The notes under the pieces are model-generated. The model saw nothing but the letters and a program-made list of their open reading frames with translations. It was not told the DNA's origin and ran no database searches. Source: Acidisoma sp. L85 (lineage in GTDB: Bacteria; Pseudomonadota; Alphaproteobacteria; Acetobacterales; Acetobacteraceae). Taken from it: 64,000 nucleotides of DNA. Below, one piece after another: positions 45,920 to 61,961 of this stretch. The first letter of the stretch is position 1. Every line of letters starts with the position of its first letter. The stretch lies in NCBI RefSeq assembly GCF_009765865.1, contig NZ_LMUQ01000025.1:62001-126000 (forward strand), written 5' to 3'. Made by a program: the position numbers and the translations under genes.

Positions 45920-45940
45920 GAGCGACCCGCCCGGTCGCTC
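45920..45940. terminator. Bidirectional hairpin at the end of urtE
   Basis: GAGCGACC-CGCCC-GGTCGCTC: a perfect 8-bp stem with 5-base loop, entering the urtE stop codon on the minus strand and following the membrane-protein gene on the plus strand. A neighbouring stem GCTCGC-CCG-GCGAGC (45909-45923) overlaps it and would be an alternative fold. No T run. Confidence 0.5.
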
Positions 45941-46634
45941 AGACCGACAGGTGCCGGCGGACATCTTCCTTGTCCAAGTCATCGCGGGCGCCAGCGACCA
46001 CAACCACACCCCGATCCATCACGGCGAGCGTCTGCGCGAGTTCGTGCGCGAAGTCGTAATATTGCTCGACCAGCAGGATCGCCATGTCGCCGCGTCCCCG
46101 CAGCAACTCGATCACCCGGCCGATGTCTTTGATGATGCTGGGCTGAATGCCTTCCGTCGGCTCGTCCAGCACCAGCAGGCGAGGCCCCATGACCAGGGCG
46201 CGTCCGATCGCGAGTTGCTGCTGCTGGCCGCCTGACAGGTCGCCGCCCCGTCGTTTCAGCATGGTCTTGAGGATGGGGAAGAGGTCGAAGATCTCATCGG
46301 GCACACGGCGCTTGCCGCGTGGGAGCACCGCGAAGCCGGTCTCCAGGTTTTCCTGGACCGTCAGGAGCGGAAAAATGTCGCGGCCCTGCGGCACCCAGGC
46401 AATGCCGCGCTTCGCGCGCTCGTACGCGGGAAGCTTGGAGATCTCCTTGCCCTCCCAGCGGATCGCTCCGTTGCTGATGGGATGCGCGCCGACAATCGCG
46501 CGGAGCAGGCTGGTTTTACCCACACCGTTACGGCCGAGGATGGCGGTGACGGACCCCGCCACCGCCTTCACCGATACGCCGCGCAAAGCGACGGCCGCGC
46601 CGTAATGCAGGCTGATGCCTTCGACTTCGAGCAT
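45939..46634 (-). CDS. urtE: Urea ABC transporter ATP-binding subunit UrtE
   Basis: 231 residues, LivF-like. Walker A GRNGVGKTS, signature LSGGQQQQLAIGRALV, Walker B LLVLDEPTEGIQPSI. The EGIQPSIIKDIG run is characteristic of UrtE versus LivF. Energises urea uptake with UrtD. Last gene of urtABCDE, 11 bases after urtD. Confidence 0.93.
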   Translation of the reverse strand: MLEVEGISLHYGAAVALRGVSVKAVAGSVTAILGRNGVGKTSLLRAIVGAHPISNGAIRWEGKEISKLPAYERAKRGIAWVPQGRDIFPLLTVQENLETGFAVLPRGKRRVPDEIFDLFPILKTMLKRRGGDLSGGQQQQLAIGRALVMGPRLLVLDEPTEGIQPSIIKDIGRVIELLRGRGDMAILLVEQYYDFAHELAQTLAVMDRGVVVVAGARDDLDKEDVRRHLSV

Positions 46635-46645
46635 CGCTGCGCTCC

Positions 46646-47407
46646 TTAACGGCCGAGATAGACGTCGATGACGCGCGGATCGGCGCTGACGTGATCGAGC
46701 GTGCCCTCCGAGAGCACGCTTCCCTCATGCAGCACCGTGACCTTGACGCCGAGCGCGCGAACGAAGGCCATGTCATGCTCCACCACCACGACGCTGCGCG
46801 TGCGGTTGATGTCGCGCAGCAGATGTGCCGTTTGCTCGGTCTCGGAATCGGTCATGCCAGCGACGGGCTCATCGACCAGCAGAAGCTGCGGATCCTGGGC
46901 GAGCAGCATGCCGATTTCCAGCCATTGCTTCTGGCCGTGCGAGAGATTGGCTGCGAGCCTGTTGCGATGCGACGTGAGCCTGATGGTTTCAAGCAGCGCC
47001 TCGACCTTCTCGGTTTCGGCTGCTGTGCGACGCGCACGAAGCGTGAAGCGGGCGCGACGGTCGCCGGCGAGCGCCAGCAGCAGATTGTCCCAGACGGTGT
47101 GGCTTTCGAAGACAGTCGGTTTCTGGAACTTGCGGCCGATACCCAGCGAGGCGATCGCCGGCTCGTCCATACGGGTGAGGTCTGTCGAGGCGCCGAATAC
47201 AACACGGCCGGCATCCGGCCGGGTCTTGCCCGTGATGATGTCCATCATGGTGCTTTTACCCGCACCATTCGGGCCGATCACCGCGCGCATCTCGCCACGG
47301 TCTAGCGTGATGGAGAGGTTGTTAATCGCACGGAATCCATCGAAGGTCTTGTTGACGCCACTGAGGTAGAGAATCGTGTCGGAGGTTGGCCCGATCGGCT
47401 GGTTCAT
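46646..47407 (-). CDS. urtD: Urea ABC transporter ATP-binding subunit UrtD
   Basis: 253 residues, LivG-like. Walker A GPNGAGKST, then MMDIITGKTRPDAGRVVFG and GIGRKFQKPTVFESHTVWDN (the UrtD Q-loop region), signature LSHGQKQWLEIGMLLAQDP, Walker B LLLVDEPVAGMT. The LSHGQKQWLEI signature is the UrtD form. Its ATG overlaps the TGA of urtC (ATGA). Confidence 0.94.
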   Translation of the reverse strand: MNQPIGPTSDTILYLSGVNKTFDGFRAINNLSITLDRGEMRAVIGPNGAGKSTMMDIITGKTRPDAGRVVFGASTDLTRMDEPAIASLGIGRKFQKPTVFESHTVWDNLLLALAGDRRARFTLRARRTAAETEKVEALLETIRLTSHRNRLAANLSHGQKQWLEIGMLLAQDPQLLLVDEPVAGMTDSETEQTAHLLRDINRTRSVVVVEHDMAFVRALGVKVTVLHEGSVLSEGTLDHVSADPRVIDVYLGR

Positions 47408-48570
47408 GCGGGCTTCTCCATTTCGGCGCCGCTCTCACGCAAATCGGCCTGCACACTGTCGATGGCCGCTATGCCCTGCGGCTCGTCCGAGGTCGGCAAA
47501 ATAGCGTCCCGCGCATTCTTGCGGCGCAGGCTGCCGACGATTCCGCGCGGCAGGAAGATCGTGACCAGGATGAACAAACCGCCCAGCGCATAGAGCCAAG
47601 CGCCGGGCAGTGCGCCCGTCAGGATCGTCTTGCCAAGGTTGACCAGCACCGCGCCTAAGATCGCGCCGGACAAGGTACCCCGACCGCCCACAGCAACCCA
47701 GATTACCGCCTCGATGGAATTGGCGGGCGCGAATTCGCTCGGGTTGATGATGCCGACCTGCGGGACATAAAGCGCCCCTCCGATACCTGCGAGCATCGCC
47801 GAAAGGGTCCAGACGACGAGCTTGTAGTATTCGGGCCGATAGCCGAGGAACCGCGTGCGGCTTTCGGCATCTCGCATCGCCACCATCACTTTGCCGAAGC
47901 GGCTGCCGGTGAGCCAACGCGCGCCGATATAGGCGAGCGCCGTGCAGATCGCGGAGATAACCATCAGCGCGGTGCCGGTGCTGCTGCGGCCGATCGGCGC
48001 GCCGAGGATGTCCTTGAAGTCGGTCATCCCGTTATTGCCGCCGAAACCCATGTCGTTGCGGAAGAAGGCGAGCAGCAGCGCGTAGGTCAGCGCTTGAGTG
48101 ATGATCGAGAGATAGACACCGCCGACGCGGCTGCGGAAAGCAAAGAAGCCGAAGATGGCGGCCAGAACGCCAGGAACGATGAGCGCCATGACGATCGCGA
48201 AGGGAAAATGCGCGAAGCCGTGCCAATACCAGGGCAGGTTCTTCCAGCCGAGAAAGATCATGAAATCCGGCAGCTGTGCATTCGCATACACACCGCGTGC
48301 GCCGATCTCCCGCGTGAGATACATGCCCATCGCGTAACCGCCGAGGGCGAAGAAAGCGGCATGGCCCAGTGTCAGGATGCCGGCAAAGCCCCAGACAAGA
48401 TCAACGGCGAGGGCCAGCATCGCGTAGCACAGGTATTTCCCGGCAAGCCCAACGACAAAATCCGAGACATGCAGGGCGCTGGTTGCCGGCGTCCCAAGGT
48501 TCAGGATCGCGAGTATCGCCGCGACGACAATGATGATGACGGGCGTTACGGTGAAAGAAAGGCGGGTCAT
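47404..48570 (-). CDS. urtC: Urea ABC transporter permease UrtC
   Basis: 388 residues, LivM-like with about ten helices. The UrtC-type stretches LAVDLVWGFAGILTLGHAAF, FFALGGYAMGMYLTREIG and GGNNGMTDFKDILG are present, with the EAA-like region MRDAESRTRFLGYRPEYYKL. Coupled to urtB (ATGA at 48570-48567) and to urtD. The extended tail after LPRGIVGSLRRKNARD is variable in the family. Confidence 0.94.
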   Translation of the reverse strand: MTRLSFTVTPVIIIVVAAILAILNLGTPATSALHVSDFVVGLAGKYLCYAMLALAVDLVWGFAGILTLGHAAFFALGGYAMGMYLTREIGARGVYANAQLPDFMIFLGWKNLPWYWHGFAHFPFAIVMALIVPGVLAAIFGFFAFRSRVGGVYLSIITQALTYALLLAFFRNDMGFGGNNGMTDFKDILGAPIGRSSTGTALMVISAICTALAYIGARWLTGSRFGKVMVAMRDAESRTRFLGYRPEYYKLVVWTLSAMLAGIGGALYVPQVGIINPSEFAPANSIEAVIWVAVGGRGTLSGAILGAVLVNLGKTILTGALPGAWLYALGGLFILVTIFLPRGIVGSLRRKNARDAILPTSDEPQGIAAIDSVQADLRESGAEMEKPA

Positions 48571-50207
48571 GCCTCCACCGCCCGTCCCTTGACCGGGAAC
48601 AAGCCACGCGGCCGGCGCTGGATGAACAGGATGATGAGCACGAGCACGACGATTTTACCGAGAACAGCGCCCGCCACCGGCTCCAGAGCCTTGTTGACGA
48701 TGCCGAGCACGAGCGCCGCGAGCGTCGTGCCCCACAGATTGCCGACACCGCCGAAGACCACCACCATGAAGCTGTCGATGATGTAGTTCTGACCGAGATT
48801 CGGCGACACATTGTCGATCTGGCTGAGCGCCACGCCAGCGATCCCGGCGATGCCCGAGCCGAGGCCGAAGGTCATCGCGTCGATCCATGGGGTGCGGATG
48901 CCCATGGAGGCCGCCATGCGACGGTTTTGCGTTACCGCCCGCATCCGCAAGCCCAGCGGCGTGTAGCGCATCACCGCCATCAAAGCCGCGAGTACGATAA
49001 TGGTGAAAACGATGATGGCGAGGCGGTTGAGCGTGATCGTGAGACCACCCAGCGCGAAATAGCCGCTCATCCAGTCCGGCGTGCCGACATTCTGGTTCTC
49101 GGCGCCGAAGATGCTGCGGATCGCCTGTTGCAGGATGAGGCTAAGTCCCCAGGTTGCCAGCAAGGTTTCCAGCGGTCGGCCATAGAGGAAGCGGATCATG
49201 CAGCGTTCGATCAGGATACCGATCGCACCGGCGACCAGAAAGGCGGCCGGGATCGCGACGATCAGGCTGCTGCCAAACATATCCGGAATATAGGCACGGA
49301 AGACCTGCTGCACGCTGAAGGTGACATAGGCGCCGATCATAACCATTTCGCCATGCGCCATGTTGATCACGCCCATCACGCCGAAGGTGATGGCGAGGCC
49401 AGCGGCGGCGAGTAGCAAGACGGAACCGAGGCTCAAGCCGTAATAGACTGTCTCCAGCCAGCTCCACAGACGCAGCGTGAAATCGATATGCGCAATGGCG
49501 GCGGCGGCGGCGGTTGCCACCGGTCCGTGCTCGCCCTGCAGAGATGAGAGCAGGTTGCGCGCTGGCATATCGTCGCGCGCGGCTACCGCGTGGATGGCGG
49601 CGAGCCGCTCGTCGCTGCTCGCGGATGGCGTCGAGAGGATATCGGCGGCTTCCGCTTGCAGGAGTGCCGCACGCGCGGCGGGGTTCTTCTCAATGGAAAG
49701 CGCATGCCGCACACCCGGTAGTGTGGCGGCGGCAGGGTTGGCGAAGATCGCGCTCGCGGCGGCCTTGCGGAGCGCCGGATCCGGGGAGGAAAGATCCAGA
49801 ACGCCAGTCGCCGTCTGGAGCGCATTCTTCACCATATCATTCGCGACGATGCGGCGAACCTGCATGAAAGGTGGGGCGTGAACCGGATCACCTGTCCGCG
49901 CGTTCAGCCATTTCCCGGTCTGCGGATCGTGGATGAAGAGAGCGTGGTCGGGACGGTCGTAGCGCCAAGTATAGAGTGCGTTGTTGCCGAGGGCGTCGAG
50001 AACCTGATGCGCGCGGGCATCGCCGGACAAGGCAACGGCCTGCACGGCCGAAACGATTGAGTCGAAGCTCTGCGAGGCTAGGCCGGCATAGGGATCGGCA
50101 GCCGTATCAGCGCGAGCCTTCGCCCCACCAAAGACAAGAAAAAGGGTAAGCGCCAGGGCACAGCAGAGAGAGGCGAAACCGCGCCGCGTGCCGCCCTTCC
50201 CCGCCAT
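48567..50207 (-). CDS. urtB: Urea ABC transporter permease UrtB
   Basis: 546 residues from ATG 50207: signal peptide (FASLCCALALTLFLVFGGAK), a periplasmic domain of about 220 residues seen in UrtB but not LivH (QSFDSIVSAVQAVALSGDAR...), then a LivH-like membrane part with GLAITFGVMGVINMAHGEMV and RMRAVTQNRRMAASMGIRTP. A start at 50300 is possible but its extra text is atypical. A hairpin containing the ribosome site lies just upstream (50211-50228). Confidence 0.93.
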   Translation of the reverse strand: MAGKGGTRRGFASLCCALALTLFLVFGGAKARADTAADPYAGLASQSFDSIVSAVQAVALSGDARAHQVLDALGNNALYTWRYDRPDHALFIHDPQTGKWLNARTGDPVHAPPFMQVRRIVANDMVKNALQTATGVLDLSSPDPALRKAAASAIFANPAAATLPGVRHALSIEKNPAARAALLQAEAADILSTPSASSDERLAAIHAVAARDDMPARNLLSSLQGEHGPVATAAAAAIAHIDFTLRLWSWLETVYYGLSLGSVLLLAAAGLAITFGVMGVINMAHGEMVMIGAYVTFSVQQVFRAYIPDMFGSSLIVAIPAAFLVAGAIGILIERCMIRFLYGRPLETLLATWGLSLILQQAIRSIFGAENQNVGTPDWMSGYFALGGLTITLNRLAIIVFTIIVLAALMAVMRYTPLGLRMRAVTQNRRMAASMGIRTPWIDAMTFGLGSGIAGIAGVALSQIDNVSPNLGQNYIIDSFMVVVFGGVGNLWGTTLAALVLGIVNKALEPVAGAVLGKIVVLVLIILFIQRRPRGLFPVKGRAVEA

Positions 50208-50210
50208 CAC

Positions 50211-50228
50211 CCTCGGCAAGTGCCGAGG
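50211..50228 (-). promoter_or_regulatory. Hairpin between urtA and urtB overlapping the urtB ribosome site
   Basis: Leftward, CCTCGGC-ACTT-GCCGAGG is a perfect 7-bp stem with a tetraloop, ending 3 bases before ATG 50207. Its right arm contributes GAGG, the probable ribosome site. It sits in the gap after the binding-protein gene, where ABC operons often place stem-loops that set the ratio of binding protein to permease. Confidence 0.45.
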
Positions 50229-50321
50229 ATGATGAGAGGGGCGCAATGACAGAACCGCGTCGGGAGACTTTCGATCGGACAGACATGCAGCGGGCGTCAT
50301 GCGCCTCTCCCCCCGTCCCGG

Positions 50322-51686
50322 TTAGGCCGGTTTAGCGCTGAGGCACTTGCCCTGAACCACGTCGTAATTTCCGCAGGACATTGGCGGCAGCCAGTCGCCG
50401 ATCAGGTCCTTGCTTTCCGGCAAATACGGCGACCAGGGCTGAGCGACGATGGTGCCGGGGGTCTGCCAAACCACATTGAACTGGCCGTCGCCCTGAATTT
50501 CACCGATGAGCACGGGCTTGGTGATGTGGTGGTTGGGCATCATCGTGGCGTAGTCGCCGGTCAGGTTCGGCACGGCGACACCGACCATCGCGTCGATCAC
50601 GGCGTCCACATCCGTGGTATTCGCCTTCTCGACCGCCTTCACCCACATGTTGAAGCCGATATAGGCGGCTTCCATGGGGTCATTGGTCACCCGCTTGTCG
50701 TTTTTGGCGAATTTCTTGAAGTCGCTGATGAACTGGGCATTCGCGGGCGCATCGACGCTCTCGAAGTAATTCCAGGCGGCGAGATGGCCGACCAGCGGCT
50801 TGGTGTCGATGCCGGCCAATTCCTGCTCGCCGACGCTGAAGGCCACGACCGGGATGTCGGTCGCCTTGATCCCCTGATTGCCGAGTTCCTTGTAGAAAGG
50901 AACATTGGCGTCGCCGTTGATGGTGGAGACCACGGCGGTTTTCTGGCCCGAGGAGCCGAAGCTCTTGATCTGGGAGACGATGCCCTGCCAGTCGGAATAG
51001 CCGAAGGGCGTGTAGTTGATCATGATGTCCGAGGCCGCGACGCCCTTGGACTTCAGATAGGCTTCCAGGATCTTGTTCGTGGTGCGGGGATAGACATAGT
51101 CGGTTCCGGCCAGAACCCACCGCTTTACGTGCTCGGTGTTCATCAGGTAGTCCACCGCGGGGATCGCCTGCTGGTTCGGCGCCGCACCGGTGTAGAAGAC
51201 ATTGCGGCTGCACTCCTGGCCCTCATACTGGACCGGGTAGAACAGGATGCCGTTCATCTGCTCGAAAACCGGCAGCACCGATTTGCGGGAGACGCTGGTC
51301 CAGCAACCGAAAGTGGCCGAGACCTTGTTGACGCTGAGGAGCTGCTTGGCCTTCTCGGCGAAAAGCGGCCAGTTGGAGGCGGGATCGACCACCACGGCCT
51401 CGAGCTGACGGCCAAGCACGCCGCCATTCGCGTTCTGCTGGGCAATCAGCATCAGCATGACTTCCTTGAGCGGAGTCTCGCTGATGGCCATGGTGCCGGA
51501 GAGTGAATGGAGGATACCGACCTTGATCGACCCGGAGGATTGCGCCCGTGCCCGGCTGCTGCCGAGAACGGTGGTGCCGAGAGTGACCGCGGCGGCCGCG
51601 GCCAACCCGAGCTTGCCGAGGTCGCGCCGTCCTGGGCCGGCGGGCGCCACGGATGTGTCTTCGTTTCTGACTGTCTCGTCCGTCAT
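50322..51686 (-). CDS. urtA: Urea ABC transporter substrate-binding protein UrtA
   Basis: 454 residues. Tat-like leader with twin Arg (GRRDLGKLGLAAAAAVTLGT), cleavage after ARA about residue 48. Mature text is UrtA-specific: SIKVGILHSLSGTMAISETP, LFYPVQYEGQECSRNVFYTG, RWVLAGTDYVYPRTTNKILE and VVWQTPGTIVAQPWSPYLPE. First gene of urtABCDE; 170 bases from the divergent kinase gene with a shared palindrome at 51770-51795. Binds urea in the periplasm. Confidence 0.95.
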   Translation of the reverse strand: MTDETVRNEDTSVAPAGPGRRDLGKLGLAAAAAVTLGTTVLGSSRARAQSSGSIKVGILHSLSGTMAISETPLKEVMLMLIAQQNANGGVLGRQLEAVVVDPASNWPLFAEKAKQLLSVNKVSATFGCWTSVSRKSVLPVFEQMNGILFYPVQYEGQECSRNVFYTGAAPNQQAIPAVDYLMNTEHVKRWVLAGTDYVYPRTTNKILEAYLKSKGVAASDIMINYTPFGYSDWQGIVSQIKSFGSSGQKTAVVSTINGDANVPFYKELGNQGIKATDIPVVAFSVGEQELAGIDTKPLVGHLAAWNYFESVDAPANAQFISDFKKFAKNDKRVTNDPMEAAYIGFNMWVKAVEKANTTDVDAVIDAMVGVAVPNLTGDYATMMPNHHITKPVLIGEIQGDGQFNVVWQTPGTIVAQPWSPYLPESKDLIGDWLPPMSCGNYDVVQGKCLSAKPA

Positions 51687-51769: not shown

Positions 51770-51795
51770 CGCCATACGCGAAACTGCGTATGGCG
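51770..51795. promoter_or_regulatory. 10-bp inverted repeat in the urtA / kinase divergent spacer
   Basis: CGCCATACGC (51770-51779) and GCGTATGGCG (51786-51795) are perfect inverted repeats around GAAACT. It lies 84 bases upstream of urtA and 62 upstream of the kinase. Size and spacing suit a dimeric LuxR/NarL-type response regulator, such as the one at 55237. I did not find a convincing sigma-54 site or NtrC box in this spacer. Confidence 0.55.
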
Positions 51796-51856: not shown

Positions 51857-54800
51857 GTGAGCAAGCTTCAACCGGCGGCACCACGCGCGGCACGCCAGCG
51901 CATCGTGCCGACGCGGCGGGAGTACAACCGCTGGGTCGCCAATCAGACGCTCGAGGATTACGCTCTCCGCTTCACCGCCAAGAGCGCCCGCAAGTGGTCG
52001 GCGCTACGCGTCGCCAATACGGCGCTGGGTGCCGTGTCCTTTCTGGCGCTGGAGGCAATCGGCGGCGGCATTACCCTCGCCTATGGTTTCACCAATAGCG
52101 TCGCCGCGATCGTCTTCGTCAGCATCATGATTTTCGCGATCAGCCTGCCGGTTTGCGTGCATGCGGCGCGGGCGGGCGTGGATGTCGATCTGCTCACGCG
52201 CGGCGCGGGCTTCGGCTATATCGGCTCGACGATCACCTCGCTGATCTACGCGTCCTTCACCTTCATCTTCTTCGGCATCGAGGCCGTGATTCTCGCGGCG
52301 ATGCTGCAGGCATTTTTCGGCGTGCCGGAATGGCTCGGATATATTCTTTGCGCCGTCGTGGTGGTGCCACTGGTCACCCATGGCATCACCTTCATCAGCC
52401 GGTTGCAGCTGTGGACGCAGCCGATCTGGTTCGTGCTCAACCTGGTGCCGATCGCGGCGATGCTGGTCGTCCATCCGGAATGGCTCGGCGGCTGGGCGCA
52501 CTATGGCGGAGACCATCAAGCGAGCAACGGTTTTCATCTTGTTGCCTTTGGCGCCGCCGCCTCGATCCTTTTCGCGCTGATCACGCAGACGGCCGAGCAG
52601 GTCGATTTCATCCGCTTCCTGCCGCCGCGCAAAAGCATGAGCGGCCTGCGGTGGTGGATGGCGCTGTTGCTCGGCGGTCCTGGCTGGATCGCCATCGATA
52701 TCGTGAAGCTTCTCGCGGGCTCGCTGCTCGCCTATGCGGCTTTGCGGACCGGGCTTATTCCGTCACGCGCCGTGCAGCCGGCGGAGATGTACCGGCTCGC
52801 ATTCAGCACCATCGCCTCGCCGGGGATGGCGATCGCGTTGACCGCCGCGCTGGTCGTGCTGTCGCAGATCAAGATCAACGTCACTAATGCCTATGCCGGG
52901 TCGCTCGCCTGGTCGAATTTCTTCTCGCGGCTGACCCATAGCCATCCGGGTCGGGTGGTCTGGCTGATCTTCAACATCGCCATCGCCCTGCTGCTGATGG
53001 AGACAGGGGTGACCCAAACCATCCAGCATACGCTGGTGGTCTATTCGGATATCGCCGCCGGATGGATGGGCGCGCTGGTGGCGGATCTCGTCGTCAACAA
53101 ACGCCTGGGGCTCAGCCCCAAGGGAATCGAGTTCAAGCGCGCGCATCTCTTCGACATCAATCCGGTCGGTGTCGGAGCGATGCTGCTGGCGGTGATCCTC
53201 TCGCTCTGCGCCTATGCCGGGCTGCTGGGGCCGGTGGCGGGCGCACTTTCGACCTTCGTGGCTTTCGGCTCAGCCTTCGTGGCGGCGCCTGTCATTGCCT
53301 GGGCCACCGGCGGGCGAACCTATCTCGCGCGCCGTGGCCGTGCGGCCTGGGCCTCGCGCGGCACCATCCCCTGCCGGGTCTGCGAGCATGCCTTCGAGCC
53401 TGAGGATATGGCCTATTGCCCGGTCTATGCCGGACCGATCTGCTCGCTTTGCTGCTCGCTCGATGCGCGCTGCCATGATGCCTGTAAGCCGCATGGCCGC
53501 ATCGCCGCGCAGGTGACCAAGCCCCTACGGGCGGTGCTGCCTGAGGCAATCGTCAACCTTGTGAACGTGCGGCTGGCGCGCTTCGCCGGCGTGTTCTTCC
53601 TCTTCGCCGCCGGCACCGGCCTGTTGCTGGTCGCCATCGCCGCCCAGACGATTGGCGAGGCGCCGTTGACGCATGAGGTGGCGCGCGCGGCGTTCTGGAA
53701 GACCTTCCTCATCATGCTGGTGATCGGTGGCGTCGTGTCCTGGCTGGCGGTGCTCGCGCAGGAAAGCCGGCGAACGGCGGAGGAGGAGACCCGGCGGCAG
53801 ACCGGGCTGCTGCTGGACGAGATCGGCGCGCATCAGCGGACCGACGCGGCGCTGCAACGCGCCAAGGAGGCCGCCGAGGCCGCAAGCCGCGCCAAAAGTC
53901 GCTACGTGGTCGGCATAAGCCATGAACTACGCAGCCCGCTCAACGCCATCCTCGGCTATGCGCAGCTTCTGGAAAAGGACACCGACATCCCGGCGCGAAA
54001 GCGCGAGGGTTTGCGCATCATCCGGCGCAGCGGCGAACATCTCACCGCGCTGATCGGCGGATTGCTCGATATCTCCAAGATCGAGGCGGGGCATATCGAA
54101 CTTTACCGCGATGAAATCCGGCTACCGGAATTCCTCGATCACCTCGTGCAGATGATGCAGCTTCAGGCGGAGACGAAGGGCATCGAATTGGTCTATCGCG
54201 CGGAAGGGCTGCCCAGCCTGGTCTATGCGGATGAGCATCGCATGCGGCAGGTGCTGATCAATCTGCTCTCCAACGCCATCAAGTTCACCGATCGTGGCCG
54301 TGTCACCTTCTCGGTCCGTTACCGCAGCCAGGTCGCCGAGTTCGAGATCGCCGATACCGGCCGCGGCATAGCGGCCAGCGACATCGCGCGTATTTTCGAG
54401 CCGTTTCAGCGCGCGGGCGACGCGCAATCGACCCCTGGGACCGGACTTGGCCTGACAATCGTCCGGCTGCTGACCGAGGTCATGGGCGGCGAGGTTACGG
54501 TCGCCAGCAGCGAGATCGGCAAAGGAAGCCGTTTCCGGCTGAGGCTCATGCTGTCGGAGGCTGCCGAAACCTTGCGGCCTAGCCCACCAACGCTGGAAAT
54601 CACCGGCTATCGCGGGCGGCGCCTTACCGTGCTTGTCGCCGATGATGATCCGTCGCAACGCGCGTTGATGCTCGATTTGCTTACGCCGCTCGGCTTCACC
54701 GTCATGGGGGCGGCTGGCGGTGTCGATTGCCTGGAGATGGCGGCACAGTGGCGTCCCGATCTCATTCTGCTCGACCTGTCGATGCCCGACATGACGGGAT

Positions 54801-55240
54801 GGGACGTGGCGGCGCGCTTGCGGGACGATGTTTACGCGCGCGCGCCGATCGTCATCATCTCCGCCAATGCGCGGGAGTTGGAGGCAGCGCCGCGCGAAGG
54901 GCAGCACCATGACGACGTCATGGCGAAACCGCTGCGGCTCGATCTTCTTCTGGAAACGATCGGGCGGCTGCTCGGCGTCGAATGGATGCGGCTCGAAAGC
55001 GATGTCGCGCCCGTCGCTGAATCGGCGGCGACGCTGACACCCGCGCAGCTCGATGAGCTGCGGGCGCTCGCGGCCATCGGCTATGTGCGGGGCATCCGCC
55101 AGCGGCTCGACAGCCTGGGCGACGAGTTCCCCGCTTTGAGCGCCGCGCTGGAACCTTTGCGGGCTCCAATCGCTGAATATCGCCTCGACGATTTTGTTCT
55201 GGCACTCGACCGCGCCGGTGCCGCGGTGACCGCTTCGTGA
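51857..55240 (+). CDS. Hybrid histidine kinase with NCS1 (purine-cytosine permease) sensor domain
   Basis: 1127 residues. About 30-490: twelve-helix NCS1 transporter-like domain (ALGAVSFLALEAIGGGITLA, TQTAEQVDFIRFLPP, KINVTNAYAGSLAWSNFFSR). 506-543: eight-Cys cluster (CxxC...CxxCC...C...C). About 575-640: two more helices. About 645-685 coiled coil. HisKA with His689 (GISHELRSPLNAILGYAQLL), HATPase N box NLLSNAIKFTD and DTGRGIA. Receiver about 920-1035 with Asp973 (LILLDLSMPDMTG), then a helical tail. GTG start. Probably senses urea or a related compound for urt/ure control. Confidence 0.9.
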   Translation: MSKLQPAAPRAARQRIVPTRREYNRWVANQTLEDYALRFTAKSARKWSALRVANTALGAVSFLALEAIGGGITLAYGFTNSVAAIVFVSIMIFAISLPVCVHAARAGVDVDLLTRGAGFGYIGSTITSLIYASFTFIFFGIEAVILAAMLQAFFGVPEWLGYILCAVVVVPLVTHGITFISRLQLWTQPIWFVLNLVPIAAMLVVHPEWLGGWAHYGGDHQASNGFHLVAFGAAASILFALITQTAEQVDFIRFLPPRKSMSGLRWWMALLLGGPGWIAIDIVKLLAGSLLAYAALRTGLIPSRAVQPAEMYRLAFSTIASPGMAIALTAALVVLSQIKINVTNAYAGSLAWSNFFSRLTHSHPGRVVWLIFNIAIALLLMETGVTQTIQHTLVVYSDIAAGWMGALVADLVVNKRLGLSPKGIEFKRAHLFDINPVGVGAMLLAVILSLCAYAGLLGPVAGALSTFVAFGSAFVAAPVIAWATGGRTYLARRGRAAWASRGTIPCRVCEHAFEPEDMAYCPVYAGPICSLCCSLDARCHDACKPHGRIAAQVTKPLRAVLPEAIVNLVNVRLARFAGVFFLFAAGTGLLLVAIAAQTIGEAPLTHEVARAAFWKTFLIMLVIGGVVSWLAVLAQESRRTAEEETRRQTGLLLDEIGAHQRTDAALQRAKEAAEAASRAKSRYVVGISHELRSPLNAILGYAQLLEKDTDIPARKREGLRIIRRSGEHLTALIGGLLDISKIEAGHIELYRDEIRLPEFLDHLVQMMQLQAETKGIELVYRAEGLPSLVYADEHRMRQVLINLLSNAIKFTDRGRVTFSVRYRSQVAEFEIADTGRGIAASDIARIFEPFQRAGDAQSTPGTGLGLTIVRLLTEVMGGEVTVASSEIGKGSRFRLRLMLSEAAETLRPSPPTLEITGYRGRRLTVLVADDDPSQRALMLDLLTPLGFTVMGAAGGVDCLEMAAQWRPDLILLDLSMPDMTGWDVAARLRDDVYARAPIVIISANARELEAAPREGQHHDDVMAKPLRLDLLLETIGRLLGVEWMRLESDVAPVAESAATLTPAQLDELRALAAIGYVRGIRQRLDSLGDEFPALSAALEPLRAPIAEYRLDDFVLALDRAGAAVTAS

Positions 55241-56121
55241 ACCGGCGCGACATCGTTCTGGTGGTCGATGACTCGCCAGGCACGCTCGGCGTTCTCAATG
55301 AGACGCTGGAGAATGCCGGCTACACGGTGCTGATGGCGCAATCCGCTGCCGCGGCGATGATGGTCATCGCGCGGGTGCTGCCCGACATCATCCTCATCGA
55401 CGCCATGATGCCCGATATGGATGGTTTCGAGGCTTGCCGACGCATGAAGCGGAATCCGGCGCTCGCCTCCGTTCCCATCGTCTTCATGACCGGCCTCACG
55501 GAAAGCGAGGATGTGGTACGCGGATTGGAGGCCGGCGGCGTGGATTACGTCACCAAACCGCTGCAACTCGACGAAGTCGTGGCCCGGATAAGCGTCCACC
55601 TGATGGGCGCGCGGCGCACGCGAAGCGCTCATGCCGCGCTCGACACCGCCGGCCGCTTCCTGCTCGCGACCGACGCCCAGGGCAATCTCGCCTGGTCAAC
55701 ACCCCAGGCGGCGCGTCTGCTAGCGAAGGCCGGAATCTCGGAAACGGCCTGCGACTGGGTGGCGGCCTGGCTTGGCGAAGCGGGCGAGCGATTGCCAGGA
55801 GAAGTCGCGGCGACGGCGGGGCAGTCACCGTTGCTGCAATTCGTCTATGTCGGACGGCTGGCGGCCGATGAACTGCTCTTCCGCGTGCAGGAACGCCAGA
55901 CATCGAGCGAGGAATCCCGCCTCCGCGAGCGTTTGGGTCTGACCGCGCGCGAGGCCGAAGTTCTGCTCTGGATCGGGCATGGCAAATCGAGCCGGGATAT
56001 CGCCGAGATCCTTGGTCTCAGTCCTCGCACGGTGCAGAAACACCTGGAGCAGATCTACACGAAACTCGGAGTGGAGAACCGCGCCGCCGCTGCGGCGGTC
56101 GCGGTGCGCACCATCGGGTAG
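55237..56121 (+). CDS. LuxR-type response regulator paired with the NCS1 kinase
   Basis: 294 residues; GTG start overlaps the kinase stop (GTGA). Residues 1-125 receiver: IVLVVDDSPGTLGVLNETLE, phospho-Asp in IILIDAMMPDMDGFEACRRM, Thr in FMTG, Lys in YVTKPLQLDEV. Residues 130-225: a PAS-like linker (FLLATDAQGNLAWSTPQAAR). Residues 232-290: LuxR helix-turn-helix LTAREAEVLLWIGHGKSSRD, IAEILGLSPRTVQKHLEQIY. Expected to bind DNA after phosphotransfer from the kinase; the palindrome at 51770 is a candidate site. Confidence 0.92.
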   Translation: MNRRDIVLVVDDSPGTLGVLNETLENAGYTVLMAQSAAAAMMVIARVLPDIILIDAMMPDMDGFEACRRMKRNPALASVPIVFMTGLTESEDVVRGLEAGGVDYVTKPLQLDEVVARISVHLMGARRTRSAHAALDTAGRFLLATDAQGNLAWSTPQAARLLAKAGISETACDWVAAWLGEAGERLPGEVAATAGQSPLLQFVYVGRLAADELLFRVQERQTSSEESRLRERLGLTAREAEVLLWIGHGKSSRDIAEILGLSPRTVQKHLEQIYTKLGVENRAAAAAVAVRTIG

Positions 56122-56135
56122 GTGGCGACCCGGGA

Positions 56136-57071
56136 TCAGAGCTTGTCTTTTGCCAGCATCATATGCGCGCCCTTCACCATATCGACGATCTGCGTCACCC
56201 GCAGATCACCCGCAAGCGAGCACAGCATATAGGCCTGGTTGGGCGAGAGATTGGTGCGGGCGCAGACGTGATCGACCATTTCCAGAACAGCCTGCTTCGC
56301 GGCGTCGTCCAAATCCTCATCTAGACCGATCGAGATGAGATGCGTGGCGGTCTCGGCAAAGGGGCGTTTGAGATGCAGGTCGCGCCGCACCGTCAGGCGA
56401 AAGGTGCCGGTGAGGCCGATTTCGAGCGCCGAGATGCAGACCTCGCCATCGCCTTGCACGCCGTGACCGTCGCCGGCCATGAACAACGCGCCATCATTGA
56501 AGATGGGAAGGTAGAGGGTGGCGCCGGGCTTGAGTTCCTTGTTGTCCATATTGCCGCCGAAAGCGCGCGGCTGCACGGAACTGCACGGACCCCAGGCCGG
56601 CGGGGGCGCGACGGCAATGATGCCGAAAAAAGGATCGAGCGGCAGGCGCGTGCCCCAAGGCAGTTCGACCGTCGATGCCGCAAGATCAACCTTCGGATGG
56701 ATTGTTTCGTAGTCGGTAAAAACCTCCGGCGCCGCGCCAAGCAGGGGCATGATGGCGGTGAACCCCCACTCCATCCAAGGACGCGCCTCCAGGATTTCGA
56801 CCTCAAGCGTGTCGCCGATGCGCGCGCCCTCCACATAGACCGGGCCACTCATGAAATGACCGCCGTGCGGCTCCGGAAAGGCCTCCAGCCCGCGTCGCCA
56901 GATTTCCGGAATGGCGCGCCCGTCTGTTGGCATGCGATCGAGACCGCCGGCTGGCAAAGCGGACAAAGCCACGGTATCGCCGGAGGCGACGCGCAGTACC
57001 GGTGGCACCGCGGCATCCAAGATGCCGCGAAGCATGGTCTCGGGGACGAAGGGAAGCTGGTGATGCGCCAT
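56136..57071 (-). CDS. Acetamidase/formamidase family protein
   Basis: 311 residues. FmdA_AmdA family text: GPVYVEGARIGDTLEVEILE, LDPFFGIIAVAPPPAWGPCS, PRAFGGNMDNKELKPGATLY, MAGDGHGVQGDGEVCISALE, CARTNLSPNQAYMLCSLAGD. Zinc-dependent hydrolysis of formamide or acetamide to ammonia and the acid. No signal peptide. Lies between the NCS1 two-component genes (converging) and ureG, so it widens the island from urea to short amides. Confidence 0.9.
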   Translation of the reverse strand: MAHHQLPFVPETMLRGILDAAVPPVLRVASGDTVALSALPAGGLDRMPTDGRAIPEIWRRGLEAFPEPHGGHFMSGPVYVEGARIGDTLEVEILEARPWMEWGFTAIMPLLGAAPEVFTDYETIHPKVDLAASTVELPWGTRLPLDPFFGIIAVAPPPAWGPCSSVQPRAFGGNMDNKELKPGATLYLPIFNDGALFMAGDGHGVQGDGEVCISALEIGLTGTFRLTVRRDLHLKRPFAETATHLISIGLDEDLDDAAKQAVLEMVDHVCARTNLSPNQAYMLCSLAGDLRVTQIVDMVKGAHMMLAKDKL

Positions 57072-57132: not shown

Positions 57133-57759
57133 CTAAGCGGCGCCGGCAAGCCCGCCCTGACGCTCAATGAAAGCGGCGATTTCGGCGACGCCGTGCCCGG
57201 CTCGGATATTGGTGAAAACGAAAGGCCGCTCGCCGCGCATTTTGCGGGAATCCCGGTCCATCACTTCCAGGCTGGCGCCGACATGAGGCGCGAGATCGAT
57301 CTTGTTGATCACCAGAAGATCGCTGCGTGTTATACCGGGCCCACCCTTTCGCGGGATCTTGTCGCCTGCGGAAACGTCGATGACATAGATGGTGATGTCG
57401 GCAAGCTCCGGGCTGAAGGTCGCCGCCAGATTGTCGCCGCCGCTTTCAATGAGAATCACATCCAGAGCCGGGAAGCGGCGTCGCAATTCCGCAACACCCG
57501 CCATATTGATGCTGGCATCCTCGCGAATGGCGGTGTGCGGGCAGCCACCGGTTTCGATTCCGAGGATGCGATCCGGAGTTAACGAGCCGGCCCGCGTGAG
57601 GAACTCGGCATCCTCCTTGGTGTATATGTCGTTGGTGATGGCCGCGATCTCGTAACGGTCACGAAATTGCTTGCAGAGCGCGTCCATAAGCGCGGTCTTA
57701 CCGGTGCCGACCGGGCCGCCGACGCCGACACGCAGCGGGCCATGGGAAGAAGCATGCAT
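57133..57759 (-). CDS. ureG: Urease accessory GTPase UreG
   Basis: 208 residues. P-loop [18 protein letters not shown], then [32 protein letters not shown] (Cys-Pro-His nickel motif), [20 protein letters not shown] and the NKxD motif [11 protein letters not shown]. Drives GTP-dependent nickel insertion with UreF and UreD. Ribosome site GAGGTGA. Separated from ureF by 584 bases, unlike the tight order upstream. Confidence 0.95.
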
Positions 57760-58343
57760 CTCTAAGTCACCTCAATCCGATAAAGGCGCTCCAGGCGCAT
57801 TACGTGGTTAGCGAGGCGGGGTAGAGCGCGCAAGCAACCGTTTCTCGAGGCGTGGCCCGCACGTCGTTGCGGTGTGCCGCTCGTGGAGCGCACGCCGAGC
57901 GATCGGCACAAGTCATTCCGAAGTCGGATCATATCGAATGGCAAAATAAATTCACTGTTAACCTGAAACGGCAATAAAGGTTCTCATTCAACAGATGGAG
58001 AATTCTCTTGGGAATGACAAATCCTGCCGGCAAAGCGCGCCTTGGCGTGTCGTCTGCGGGCGAAATTCCGGAACTCGACGACAACGCCTGGAAAAGTCTC
58101 CGCGAGTTCTAGGCCAAAACTAAATTTGCTCGAACGCGACGAACCTTCTGCCAGCGTCGAGTAACACCACGCTCTGCAACAACACGGCCCTCACGACGGG
58201 CGCGCAGACCTACCAAGGCGGGTTCAGTCCGTCGACGTTTGCGATGTTCACCCTACCGGTACTCGGCCTTGGCTGTGCGGCCTACACCGTTTACAACCGC
58301 CGTCAGCCTCTTGGATATGTGCGACCGACCGACGTGTAGCCCG
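57760..58343. other. Non-coding or decayed spacer between ureF and ureG
   Basis: 584 bases inside an otherwise packed operon. No known protein is visible. Two short plus-strand frames stand out: a 32-codon peptide at 58014-58112 (MTNPAGKARLGVSSAGEIPE...) and, ending at 58339, a stretch without a start that has a membrane-like segment followed by Arg-Arg (FAMFTLPVLGLGCAAYTVYN). They may be remnants of an insertion or tiny genes; neither has a good ribosome site. ureG may need its own promoter here. Confidence 0.35.
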
Positions 58344-59015
58344 TCAGCTGCGGAACAGACGCGTGTATTGTGTCTCGTGATGCAGGGCAGCCAATTCGGC
58401 GCGTAAGGCGGCGGTGCCGAGATCGTCGAGCGTCGCCGCGCGTGTTTCCTCCGCCACGGATAGCAGAACAGGTTCCAGCGCCGCCAGAATGCGCAAGCCC
58501 GCCTGCTGGCCCAGAGGCACGAGACGCACCGCCGCCGAAACGAGATTCGCGGCGAAGGCGTGCAGCAAACCCAGCGTCGCCCGCTCCTCTGGCACGCCAT
58601 GCGCGGCGGCAACGGCGCCGACAGCGATAGGATACGCGATGTCGCCTTCAGCGAGCCGCGCCAAAACAGGCGCCGGCCAGGCGGCGGCGGCGAGGAGGAA
58701 GGCGCGGCCCTGGGCAGTCGTCTCCAGAAAGCGTTCGCGGCCGAAGGGCAAGGCGGCGCCAAGTTCCGCCAGTTCAGACAGCGCCGCCCAATCCTCGGCC
58801 GTCGTCGCGCGATGACTGTGGCGCAGCAGGATAGCGTCAGTGCGGCCGCTACCTTGTTCCAGGATATCCACGAGCCAGGCGACCAAACCGGCAGTGCTGC
58901 GCGCGTCCCCCCTTTCGATCGCCCATTCGAGGCCGTGGCTATAGGCGAAACCTCCTGTTGGGAAGGCCGGAGACAGCCAGGCAAGCAGGCGCAAAAGCCC
59001 GCCGTCCTCAGTCAT
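58344..59015 (-). CDS. ureF: Urease accessory protein UreF
   Basis: 223 residues, all-helical: LLRLLAWLSPAFPTGGFAYS, HGLEWAIERGDARSTAGLVA and VRLVPLGQQAGLRILAALEP. The SPAFPTGGFAYSHGLE block is the UreF hallmark; the C terminus (QYTRLFRS) ends as usual. Acts as the GTPase regulator in the UreDFG nickel-loading complex. Start overlaps the end of ureE by 8 bases. Confidence 0.94.
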   Translation of the reverse strand: MTEDGGLLRLLAWLSPAFPTGGFAYSHGLEWAIERGDARSTAGLVAWLVDILEQGSGRTDAILLRHSHRATTAEDWAALSELAELGAALPFGRERFLETTAQGRAFLLAAAAWPAPVLARLAEGDIAYPIAVGAVAAAHGVPEERATLGLLHAFAANLVSAAVRLVPLGQQAGLRILAALEPVLLSVAEETRAATLDDLGTAALRAELAALHHETQYTRLFRS

Positions 59016-59493
59016 GATGATGGTCGTGGTCGCCGTGATGATGGTGATGGCCGCCAGTGCCGGGGGCGTAGGCGCCGGATTCGGGATCGAATGGCGCGTC
59101 GTTCTCCTCCGCGTGTCCGCCGAGACCTTCGACCATTTCGGCTATGACATGGTCGTACCGGATACGTATCTGGCCCGGCAGGAACTGCACCGGAAGATGA
59201 CGGTTGCCGAGATGCCAGGCGATGCGCATCAGGGCATCCTCGTCATGGGCGTGGATGTCGAGCACGCGCTCCGCCATGGCTTGCACCGCGATGAGCCGCC
59301 CGTCCTCCAGGCGCAATGCATCGCCAGCGCGCAGAGCAACGGCTTGGGGAAGGTCGAGCATGACTTCGCCACCAGCCAGAGTTTTGAGGAGGAAGCGGCG
59401 ACGATGGCGGTGGTCGTGGTCAAGCAACACGGCATCGGTGGCTTCGGACGTGGACCAGCTACCGGCGGGAATGTATTCGGTCGCGCGGATCAT
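59008..59493 (-). CDS. ureE: Urease nickel chaperone UreE
   Basis: 161 residues from ATG 59493 (MIRATEYIPAGSWSTSEATD); a longer frame runs through the palindromic repeat and is rejected. Core: LLDHDHRHRRRFLLKTLAGG, LAWHLGNRHLPVQFLPGQIR-like (IAWHLGNRHLPVQF), with the metal His in GNRHLPVQ. The tail is His-rich (GGHHHHHGDHDHHHD), for nickel storage and transfer to UreG. Separated from ureC by the inverted repeat at 59522-59583. Confidence 0.93.
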   Translation of the reverse strand: MIRATEYIPAGSWSTSEATDAVLLDHDHRHRRRFLLKTLAGGEVMLDLPQAVALRAGDALRLEDGRLIAVQAMAERVLDIHAHDEDALMRIAWHLGNRHLPVQFLPGQIRIRYDHVIAEMVEGLGGHAEENDAPFDPESGAYAPGTGGHHHHHGDHDHHHD

Positions 59494-59521
59494 GCGAGTG
59501 TTACTTACCCGCGACCCACCC

Positions 59522-59583
59522 CGGCCCCTCCCTTTCAGGGAGTGGACATGCGTTCTGCACCCCTCCCTGAAAGGGAGGGGCCG
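59522..59583. repeat. 21-bp perfect inverted repeat between ureC and ureE
   Basis: Left arm 59522-59542 (CGGCCCCTCCC...) and right arm 59563-59583 (its exact complement, ...GGGAGGGGCCG) with a 20-base loop; further partial pairing extends outward. Text of this kind (CCCTCCCTTTCAGGGAG) is a dispersed REP-like palindrome in several alphaproteobacterial genomes. As RNA it would be a very stable hairpin inside the urease transcript, possibly a processing or attenuation site. Confidence 0.7.
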
Positions 59584-59627
59584 GGGGTGGATTCGCCCAA
59601 GCGGCAAAGCGCAGCATGGTCAGCGCC

Positions 59628-61334
59628 TCAAAACAAGAAATACCGCTGCGCCATCGGCAACACCGTCGCCGGCTCGCAAGTCAGGATCACGCCATCCGCG
59701 CGTACTTCATAAGTCTCGGGATCGACCTCGATTACCGGCGTCGCGTCGTTATGGATCATGGAACGCTTGCCGATCCCGCCACGCGTATTGGAGACCGGCA
59801 GCAACTGCCGCGTGAGGCCCAGGCTGCGGCCGAGATCCGCGTCGATCGCCGCACCCGACACGAACAACACTGACGACAACACCAAACTGCGGCCGTAACC
59901 GCCGAACATCGGCCGCGCATGCACCGGCTGAGGCGTCGGGATCGAGGCATTGGGATCGCCCATCATCGCCATCGCGATCGTACCGGCTTTCAACACCAGA
60001 TCGGGCTTCACGCCGAAGAATGCCGGCGACCACAGCACCAGATCGGCGATCTTGCCGACCTCGACCGAGCCGATATAGGCCGAGACACCCTGAGCGATGG
60101 CCGGGTTCATGGTATATTTGGCGATGTAGCGCTTCACCCGCGCATTGTCGGCAGCACCATCACCCGGCAAAGCGCCACGCTGCACCTTCATCTTATGCGC
60201 TGTCTGCCAGGTCCTCGTGATCACCTCGCCCACACGGCCCATCGCCTGGCTGTCCGAGCTGATGATTGAGAAGGCGCCGAGGTCGTGCAGAATATCCTCC
60301 GCCGCGATCGTCTCGCGCCGGATGCGGCTTTCGGCGAAGGCGATGTCCTCGGGGATCGAGGGGTCGAGGTGATGACAGACCATGAGCATGTCGAGATGCT
60401 CGTCCAGCGTGTTAAGCGTGTAGGGGCGCGTCGGATTGGTCGAGGACGGGATGACATTGGGCAATCCCGCCACACGGATGATGTCCGGCGCATGGCCGCC
60501 GCCCGCGCCTTCCGTGTGGTAGGCGTGGATGGTGCGATCCTTGAAGGCGGCGATCGTGTCCTCGACGAAGCCGCTTTCGTTCAGCGTGTCGGTATGGATC
60601 ATCACCTGCACGTCGAAGCGATCGGCGACGGAGAGACAGTTGTCGATGGCGGCGGGCGTGGTGCCCCAATCCTCGTGCAGCTTCAGCGCGGCGGCACCGG
60701 CACGCACCATTTCCTCCAGCGCCTCGGGGCGCGTCGCATTGCCCTTGCCCGCGAACATGATGTTGATCGGCAGCCCTTCCGCCGCCTGCATCATGCGCCC
60801 GAGATGCCAAGGTCCTGGCGTGCAGGTGGTGGCGGAGGTGCCTGTCGCCGGGCCGGTGCCGCCGCCAAGCAGCGTGGTGATGCCGGAAGCCAGCGCTTCC
60901 TCGACCTGCTGCGGGCAGATGAAATGCACATGCGCATCGAAACCGCCGGCAGTGAGAATCTTGCCCTCGCCGGCGATGATCTCCGTCCCCGGACCGATGA
61001 TGATATCGACATTCGGCTGCGTGTCGGGATTACCGGCCTTGCCGATGGCGGCAATGCGGCCGTCCCTGAGCGACACGTCGGCTTTCACGATGCCCCAATG
61101 ATCGATGATCAGCGCATTGGTGATGACGGTGTCGGCGGCCCCGGCCGCATTGGTGACTTGGGACTGGCCCATGCCGTCACGGATGACCTTGCCGCCGCCG
61201 AACTTCACCTCCTCGCCATAAACTGTGAAGTCGCGCTCGACCTCGACGAATAATTCGGTATCGGCCAGCCGTACTCGGTCCCCCACGGTGGGGCCGAACA
61301 TATGGGCGTAGGAATGGCGGGACATGCGGGCCAT
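59628..61334 (-). CDS. ureC: Urease alpha subunit UreC
   Basis: 568 residues, the catalytic subunit that splits urea into ammonia and carbamate. The bridging carbamylated Lys is in [14 protein letters not shown] (K218). Nickel His: [30 protein letters not shown]; nickel Asp in [11 protein letters not shown]. The mobile flap is [20 protein letters not shown] with catalytic His about 321. Start ATG 61334 ([15 protein letters not shown]) follows GGAAGG; a second ATG lies three codons on. All key residues are intact. Four bases after ureB. Confidence 0.97.
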
Positions 61335-61338
61335 GATG

Positions 61339-61662
61339 TCAGCCTTCCAACGCGCCGTTGATCTCGCCACGGAACCCGTAAACCACACGCTTGCCTCGCA
61401 GCGGGATCAGCGTGACCTCCCGGCTCTGCCCCGGCTCGAACCGCACGGCGGTGCCGGCCGCGATATCCAGCCGATAACCGCGCGCCGCGGCCCGGTCGAA
61501 GCGCAGCGCTGGGTTAGTCTCCGCGAAATGGTAATGGCTGCCGACCTGCACCGGGCGATCGCCAGTATTCGCAACCGTTAATTTTACTTCGACGGCACCG
61601 GCGTTGATCTCGATATCACCCGCTAGAGGCAGAATTTCGCCGGGAATCATGGGGCCGCTCAT
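61339..61662 (-). CDS. ureB: Urease beta subunit UreB
   Basis: 107 residues: [80 protein letters not shown]. Standard UreB with the VGSHYHF block. ATG overlaps the ureA stop (ATGA). Confidence 0.96.
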
Positions 61663-61961
61663 CGGATCGGCTCATGCACGGTGACGAGCTTCGTACCGTC
61701 CGGGAAGGTCGCCTCTACCTGCACGTCCTCGATCATCTCCGGCACGCCCTCCATCACCTGCGCCCGGGTCAGCACATGGGCGCCCGCCTCCATGAGGTCG
61801 GCGACGGAGCGGCCGTCCCGCGCCCCTTCCACTACGAAATCGCTGATCAGGGCGATCGCCTCGGGGTAGTTGAGCACCACGCCCCGCTCCAGCCGCCGCC
61901 GGGCGACACTGGCGGCCATGCTGATGAGCAGCTTGTCCTTCTCGCGTGGCGTCAGCTTCAT
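61659..61961 (-). CDS. ureA: Urease gamma subunit UreA
   Basis: 100 residues: [80 protein letters not shown]. Full-length. First gene of the ureABC-E-F run. It does not follow ureD directly, as would be usual: an oppositely oriented orphan gene and about 217 bases intervene, so a promoter is expected at about 61965-62170. Confidence 0.96.

Follow-up and report, generated by a model that had tools for sequence, protein, structure and literature searches.

Transporter-type sensor kinases and the Acidisoma locus

Histidine kinases that carry a whole permease ahead of the kinase are established in the SSS/SLC5-STAC group, in which the permease is of the SSS type, with the LeuT motif, and whose described members include CbrA, CrbS/MxtR and PrlS (PMC7918813). 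According to further reports, RpuS is another SSS-type transporter kinase (PMC9100948), CbrA has been termed a rare transceptor (2026 preprint; PMC13022988), and the CrbS/R pair has a LuxR-family regulator, with CrbR activation needing an inverted-repeat motif (PMC5715377). All transporter kinases that we found in the literature searched use an SSS permease. Here, we describe a hybrid histidine kinase of Acidisoma sp. L85 whose N-terminal part is, by profile comparison and modeled fold, a divergent NCS1-fold transporter domain. It is encoded at 51857..55240 in a 64,000-nucleotide stretch of contig NZ_LMUQ01000025.1 (hereafter the window, meaning the whole stretch analyzed, in whose coordinates all positions are given) and is followed by the gene for a LuxR-type response regulator. 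Neither an NCS1-type kinase nor an NCS1-type urea permease was found in the literature searched, mostly non-subscription papers, and the initial annotation of this DNA had likewise known of no described member.

Gene clusters comparable to the neighborhood of this kinase have been reported from two directions. A 2010 paper on SIMBAL proposed an amide, with acetamide and formamide as examples, as the cargo of a Urt-like transporter beside an amidase; its main text contains neither 'kinase' nor 'sensor' as a word (PMC3098086). In operon III of Ectopseudomonas guguanensis G3, a genome report lists urtABCDE together with a neighboring hybrid kinase and LuxR regulator, and an fmdA carries the next locus tag (PMC13296017).

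We consider it probable, with confidence clearly though not greatly above even, that the Acidisoma kinase and its relatives use an NCS1-fold domain as a sensor of urea or short aliphatic amides and act through the LuxR regulator to switch on the adjacent uptake and hydrolysis genes. Such a sensor would have originated when an NCS1-fold permease for these compounds was fused to a hybrid histidine kinase. The permease domain would bind urea or an amide such as formamide, and its motion would be relayed through an eight-cysteine module and two extra helices to HisKA. The kinase would then phosphorylate the regulator, which would bind a TACG-N8-CGTA palindrome between the kinase gene and urtA, activate the divergently oriented uptake operon, in which urt accompanies urease or urt-like genes accompany formamidase or amidase, and tune its own gene by autoregulation. 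Computation shows the gene order, the domain architecture, the fold and a palindrome common to many loci; the architecture is both genuine and conserved, and its tie to the operon is strong. The ligand is a guess, though one with support; whether the signal turns the kinase up or down, the part played by the receiver and any retained transport are likewise predictions.

A divergent NCS1-fold domain at the N-terminus

The relationship of the N-terminal part to NCS1 proteins was established at the profile and structure levels. A family profile built from 81 sequences aligned over 422 columns with an NCS1 profile (PF02133 proteins from the window's genome and its relatives) at an hhalign probability of 97.8% (E 1e-12). 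As controls, the family profile reached 1.3% with SSS, 1.65% with UrtC, 0.14% with UrtB and 0.03% with UrtA; as a yardstick, the NCS1 profile itself gave 83% against SSS. An AlphaFold model computed from 60 sequences (predicted local distance difference score, pLDDT, 80.7; predicted template modeling score, pTM, 0.82) retrieved CodB as its top Foldseek match (E 4e-9), with Mhp1 second. VIA-align matched positions 21..476 of the model, that is, residues 31-486 of the kinase (51947..53314), to CodB (7qoa; Z 34.4, root-mean-square deviation 3.3 over 397 residues), followed by three Mhp1 rows (Z 28.2, 27.6 and 25.3), with the next non-Mhp1 row at Z 24.1. With CodB and Mhp1 as its top VIA-align rows, the model has the NCS1 variant of the LeuT fold. 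Because the hhalign, Foldseek and VIA-align comparisons all point to this family, we regard the N-terminal domain, as modeled, as a divergent member of the NCS1 fold that falls outside the curated PF02133 family.

Direct searches with single sequences were silent. The N-terminal 640 residues of the kinase have no Pfam match to PF02133 (Transp_cyt_pur) over the curated cut-off and none to any transporter family even at E values up to 10; the same holds for all 22 sequences of alignment A1, which include two stand-alone transporters. A sequence search returned no similar PDB sequence for the N-terminal part, and no transporter name stood above cut-off among the best 25 of 117 NCBIfam rows. The initial annotation had named an NCS1 transporter as the sensor part, with which profile-profile comparison and fold agree; the check proposed with it, an NCS1 match in a hidden Markov model search, failed when taken literally with Pfam, a test too blunt for so divergent a family. 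As an alternative permease family, SSS was rejected by the profile comparison, and no PF00474 (SSF) match was found in Pfam; SSS proteins, including urea-bound DUR3 structures, appear lower in the Foldseek and VIA-align lists.

Several Mhp1 positions that we take to be substrate- or sodium-site residues could be followed into the family through chained low-identity alignments, in which the register is uncertain. There, Mhp1 Asn318 is kept, Gln121 corresponds to an invariant Glu142, Trp117 to Phe, and Ser312, presumably a sodium-site residue, to an invariant Lys339. Because Lys339 and Glu142 occupy the Ser312 and Gln121 positions, the family may depart from other NCS1 proteins in its ion coupling and in its contacts with the substrate. 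The same lysine could suit a domain that monitors a general state, such as a proton or ion gradient or nitrogen status, and has the urea operon only as its downstream target. Ionic strength has been proposed as the signal of PrlS, a hybrid kinase of the SSS type that is paired with a LuxR regulator (PMC7918813), but the stand-alone relatives described below lie near urease or amidase genes and point to a substrate, so that we hold a general-state sensor to be unlikely.

The linking segment, kinase core and regulator

Between the permease and the kinase, residues 506-543 (53372..53485) form a module in which eight cysteines are invariant in 60/60 aligned rows. The pattern is complete in four stand-alone relatives of alignment A3 (L053, L055, L144 and L145; L and G numbers denote loci and genomes of our survey) and shortened in the other eight. 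The module is probably a metal site. Folded together with the two helices that follow and searched, it gave 0 rows at E 0.001 and only weak RING/LIM/PHD-like rows, the best being a RING finger at E 1.6. The two extra long helices of the model (about residues 572-598 and 606-649; 53570..53803) are read as a membrane hairpin leading into the kinase linker. The 'twelve-helix' description of the initial annotation thus holds for the transporter part and omits these two helices before HisKA. No Pfam row for a STAC domain lies between permease and kinase, a result of the Pfam scan only, with no direct alignment to STAC.

The remainder of the 1127-amino-acid protein, which has a GTG start, comprises HisKA (residues 680-745; 53894..54091) with the phospho-acceptor His689, HATPase_c (residues 792-899; 54230..54553) and a Response_reg receiver (residues 925-1035; 54629..54961) with Asp973, each above its Pfam cut-off. 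All three lie on one chain, and the protein is therefore a hybrid sensor histidine kinase. The regulator gene (55237..56121; 294 amino acids) encodes a Response_reg domain (residues 7-118, with Asp55) and a GerE/LuxR domain (residues 235-289), both above Pfam cut-offs, and this adjacent REC-GerE protein makes the pair a two-component system with a LuxR-type regulator. Both genes are on the plus strand, and their open reading frames (ORFs) share four bases, GTGA, as read directly from the sequence. The coordinates, the overlap and the positions of His689 and Asp973 are exactly those first annotated.

Distribution and phylogeny of the kinase family

A named scan confirmed at least 586 relatives, and the 80 named loci used below are the best-scoring of these and therefore lean towards close relatives of the window. 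These best 80 carry labels that include Bradyrhizobium, Sinorhizobium, Rhizobium, Alcanivorax, Marinobacter, Pseudomonas and Burkholderiales, and the nearest named relative among the best 80 of at least 586 is from Acidisoma cellulosilyticum (82%). The kinase is present in 5/5 genomes of the genus, and some relative occurs in 67/299 sampled genomes of the family. An even sample of the class gave a match in 22/337 genomes, with a full-length kinase in 20, and a sample of the phylum Pseudomonadota gave a match in 55/398; in 52/398, or roughly one in eight, the open frame was 894 amino acids or longer.

Trees were quick ones, with support from the Shimodaira-Hasegawa-like approximate likelihood ratio test (SH-aLRT) only and a very long NCS1 outgroup; they were built from about half of alignment A2 (59 of the 80 named loci; L063, whose frame holds a stop, was excluded) plus other sets. 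A branch with SH-aLRT 99 separates all kinase-fused forms from the rest, consistent with a single fusion event. The stand-alone transporters form two groups in the rooted tree and lie on one side of a branch in the unrooted tree.

Some relatives stand out by location or build. A conjugative Klebsiella pneumoniae plasmid (L200; NZ_CP103698.1 60872-84728) carries a kinase relative, with an N-terminal part 49.6% identical, together with urtABCDE, a formamidase gene, a regulator ORF and the palindrome, and matches occur in 342 Klebsiella plasmid records. In Paracoccus sp. TOH (L203; NZ_CP098362.1 182048-201619), the kinase is shorter (873 amino acids), the response-regulator genes are separate, and the kinase adjoins a formamidase gene and a gene for an AmiS/UreI-family channel.

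Stand-alone relatives of the transporter domain

Proteins of about 530-610 amino acids in Acetobacteraceae consist of the same permease without the kinase, and their placement is the strongest hint of a urea or amide substrate. The stand-alones of L139-L143 adjoin a urease operon, that of L137 lies about 4 kb from one, and that of L136 adjoins a different urease (UreC 58% identical). Those of L055 and L224-L226 adjoin an aliphatic amidase, and those of L053, L144, L145 and L224-L226 are near a kinase pair and formamidase; the stand-alone of L138 has no urease- or amidase-type neighbor in view. Nine genomes from four genera hold a stand-alone only, one of them (G212) as a mere remnant; none of the nine has a UrtA match, and seven have urease near the transporter. 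These placements near urease in UrtA-less genomes suggest that the stand-alones there are urea permeases. In one further case (L201; CP125156), a stand-alone gene annotated 'cytosine permease' comes immediately after ureG of a urease operon. We would go as far as proposing, at slightly less than an even chance, that a new NCS1 branch carries urea and short amides, that its stand-alone members serve as urea permeases in some urease-positive bacteria without UrtA, and that one ancestral fusion turned such a transporter into a dual transporter-receptor kinase equipped with an operator.

Three of these loci deserve separate mention. The record holding L201 (CP125156.1 4486663-4506210) is labeled a K. 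pneumoniae plasmid of 5.37 Mb and is probably a chromosome, because it carries genes such as rpoD and rpsU. In L148 (G212:C1 737000-756500), the 100-amino-acid stand-alone remnant adjoins a 142-amino-acid ureD-like piece, the two apparently decaying together. A more distant stand-alone relative (L146 8209-9735, in G155; 23-27% identical, 508-538 amino acids) has no neighbor matching the urea or amide reference proteins within the surrounding 19.5 kb.

Conserved gene order and two operon types

The linkage between the kinase and urea genes, first noticed in the window, is conserved far beyond this genome. Contig ends or the 10-kb flank truncate many loci, so that neighbor counts are lower bounds. 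In 77/80 named loci, the kinase has a urtA-like gene upstream in the opposite orientation, within 1 kb in 67/80; in two of the three others the contig ends within 370 bases upstream, and the third, L122 from Azospirillum, genuinely departs from the pattern. Directly downstream of the kinase, the regulator gene is present in 76/80; of the four not counted, L087, L112 and L127 do hold it, missed by coverage or distance limits, and in L081 the contig ends nearby. In the class sample, UrtA scored over cut-off in 20/20 genomes with a full-length kinase vs 74/337 overall (P 7e-15, uncorrected for kinship), and kinase and urtA lay within 10 kb of each other in 16/20, and within 2 kb and divergent in 14/20.

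Identity to the window's UrtA separates the 77 loci with urtA into two groups, at 36-44% and 67-90%. The low-identity, amide-type loci (n=48) hold FmdA, a family named by NF045496, in 41 and aliphatic amidase in 17, with urease in 0; the high-identity, urea-type loci (n=29) hold urease in 18 and FmdA in 0, and FmdA and urease share a locus in 0/80. The urease genes of L036 and L038 lie downstream of urtE in the same orientation. On the kinase tree, operon type changes twice over 51 rows, with UrtA type assigned by identity to the window's UrtA or, for 20 rows, from gene order by eye; L053 was entered as amide-type despite its urease, and L051, L052, L122, L128 and L202 were not entered.

A sensor kept while its operon changed type might respond to something downstream that urea and amide breakdown have in common, such as ammonium, formate or carbamate, and ammonia is a product of both urease and formamidase. 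Against such a product signal, which we think has only a slim chance of being correct, a permease homolog near urease in UrtA-less genomes fits urea uptake better than ammonium. Less probable again, to the point of being hardly credible, is that the kinase domain and the stand-alones carry nucleobases or allantoin and that urea genes are linked as urea is released in their breakdown. CodB as the closest fold and the 'cytosine permease' annotation would favor it, yet the named neighbor clusters are mainly urea, formamidase and aliphatic amidase clusters (most of the rarer clusters, which may include purine or pyrimidine genes, being unnamed), and Mhp1 Trp117 and Gln121 align, in the uncertain register, with Phe and the invariant Glu142. 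Among the signals first suggested for the kinase, urea is thus supported by the conserved context, and allantoin, hydantoin and a pyrimidine are not; urea and short aliphatic amides fit better because the second conserved context consists of formamidase and aliphatic amidase.

A candidate operator between urtA and the kinase

The 170 bases that separate urtA from the kinase gene contain CGCCATACGC-GAAACT-GCGTATGGCG, a 26-base inverted repeat (51770-51795) whose core, TACG-N8-CGTA (51775..51790, no strand assigned), is our candidate operator; the window has no second copy of this core. The urease genes of the window form a separate convergent unit without this core. Across 68 urtA-kinase intergenic regions (the window, L036 and 66 named loci whose urtA match lies closer than 800 bases), the core is present in 55, comprising 21/21 urea-type and 34/47 amide-type regions. 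Shuffles, which kept single-base content only, gave 0.2 on average, and equal-sized windows elsewhere in the loci held the core in 11/4744; other spacings from 2 to 15 occur in 0-2/68 regions and the next-best four-base arm in 6/68.

The count over these regions is not independent, because the palindrome was seen first in the window and then in the region list; the genus genomes, together with 18 kinase loci not among the 68, offer a fairer check. In all five genomes of the genus, the kinase-urtA region holds the 18-base form ATACG-N8-CGTAT, whose genome-wide total is one in G002, G003 and G004, two in G001 and four in G000. Of the 18 further loci, the core occurs in 12, either ahead of the kinase, in the interval from the kinase to fmdA or to urtA, or close to urtA; these 12 include three loci without urt nearby (L228-L230). 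L144 and L145 carry a second site just before the stand-alone transporter, where L053 has none. Binding of the regulator to these sites is predicted.

Observations that weigh against the proposed urea and amide sensor

Several observations run counter to the sensor proposed here. Pfam does not recognize the transporter domain, and its scan of the kinase revealed no Hpt domain, which bears on the path onward from the receiver. The operon link has exceptions: in the class sample, the kinase lies apart from urt in 4/20 genomes (G348 and three genomes of one genus), as it does in L122; outside the named set, L053, L144, L145 and L224 combine FmdA and urease with no urt nearby; and in L052, a 41% identical UrtA lies beside ureG/ureF, with urt converging with the kinase. 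The palindrome is missing from 13/68 intergenic regions, all amide-type, and its core from 6/18 further kinase loci (L051, L052, L122, L203, L227 and L231). Finally, adjacency alone does not tell which gene product senses.

Genes surrounding the kinase in the window

Divergent from the kinase, on the minus strand, lies urtABCDE: urtA (50322..51686), the binding protein of a urea ATP-binding cassette transporter (Peripla_BP_5; TIGR03407, 564.7 bits, over cut-off); the permease genes urtB (48567..50300; PF02653 and operon position) and urtC (47404..48570; TIGR03408); and the ATPase genes urtD (46646..47407; TIGR03411) and urtE (45939..46634), the last named as a homolog of L044 UrtE (TIGR03410) in conserved order. 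The window's UrtB has 577 amino acids, with a long N-terminal stretch before its permease domain (287-559); the UrtB proteins of the amide-type loci L044 and L046 have 308. On the other side and convergent with the regulator, also on the minus strand, are an acetamidase/formamidase-family gene (56136..57071; PF03069) and the urease operon, with ureG, ureF, ureE, ureC, ureB and ureA at 57133..61961 (Pfam identifies ureG and ureC, and the small genes are named after their homologs in the annotated operon of L201) and ureD at 62677..63555 (27% identity to L201 UreD, and operon position). The initial placement of the kinase beside urt, formamidase and urease genes is borne out.

Comparison with known systems

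Among described operons, Bradyrhizobium blr0968-blr0973 is of the same type as the amide-linked neighbors, a likeness drawn from the description in the SIMBAL paper and not from sequence (PMC3098086). Operon III of strain G3 is known from annotation in the 2026 genome report and is likewise compared by description, not sequence; unlike the analysis here, the available part of that report gives no transporter-like sensor, operator or mechanism (PMC13296017). If the sensor is as we propose, it would name a regulator of urea and formamide use, of consequence for soil and plant-associated nitrogen cycling, and a possible urea permease of a new kind, which one record annotates as 'cytosine permease'. 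The set of sensor and operator is compact and occurs in many genera; its ligand, operator and target genes are all predicted.

With CodB and Mhp1, the N-terminal domain shares a fold over 397-435 residues and the profile similarity given above; it differs from them in the absence of a PF02133 match, an identity of 14-16%, the attached kinase and the changed substrate- and sodium-site positions, subject to the uncertain register. The closest parallel in layout remains the SSS/SLC5-STAC kinases, as the initial annotation recognized for the CbrA type: both place a whole permease ahead of a histidine kinase, and CrbS/R further shares a LuxR regulator and an inverted repeat (PMC5715377). Unlike those kinases, the present family has a permease of the NCS1 fold, a cysteine module and two helices between permease and kinase, and linked urea and amide genes; the use of a second permease family as a sensor, if true, would show that such sensor-building arose more than once.

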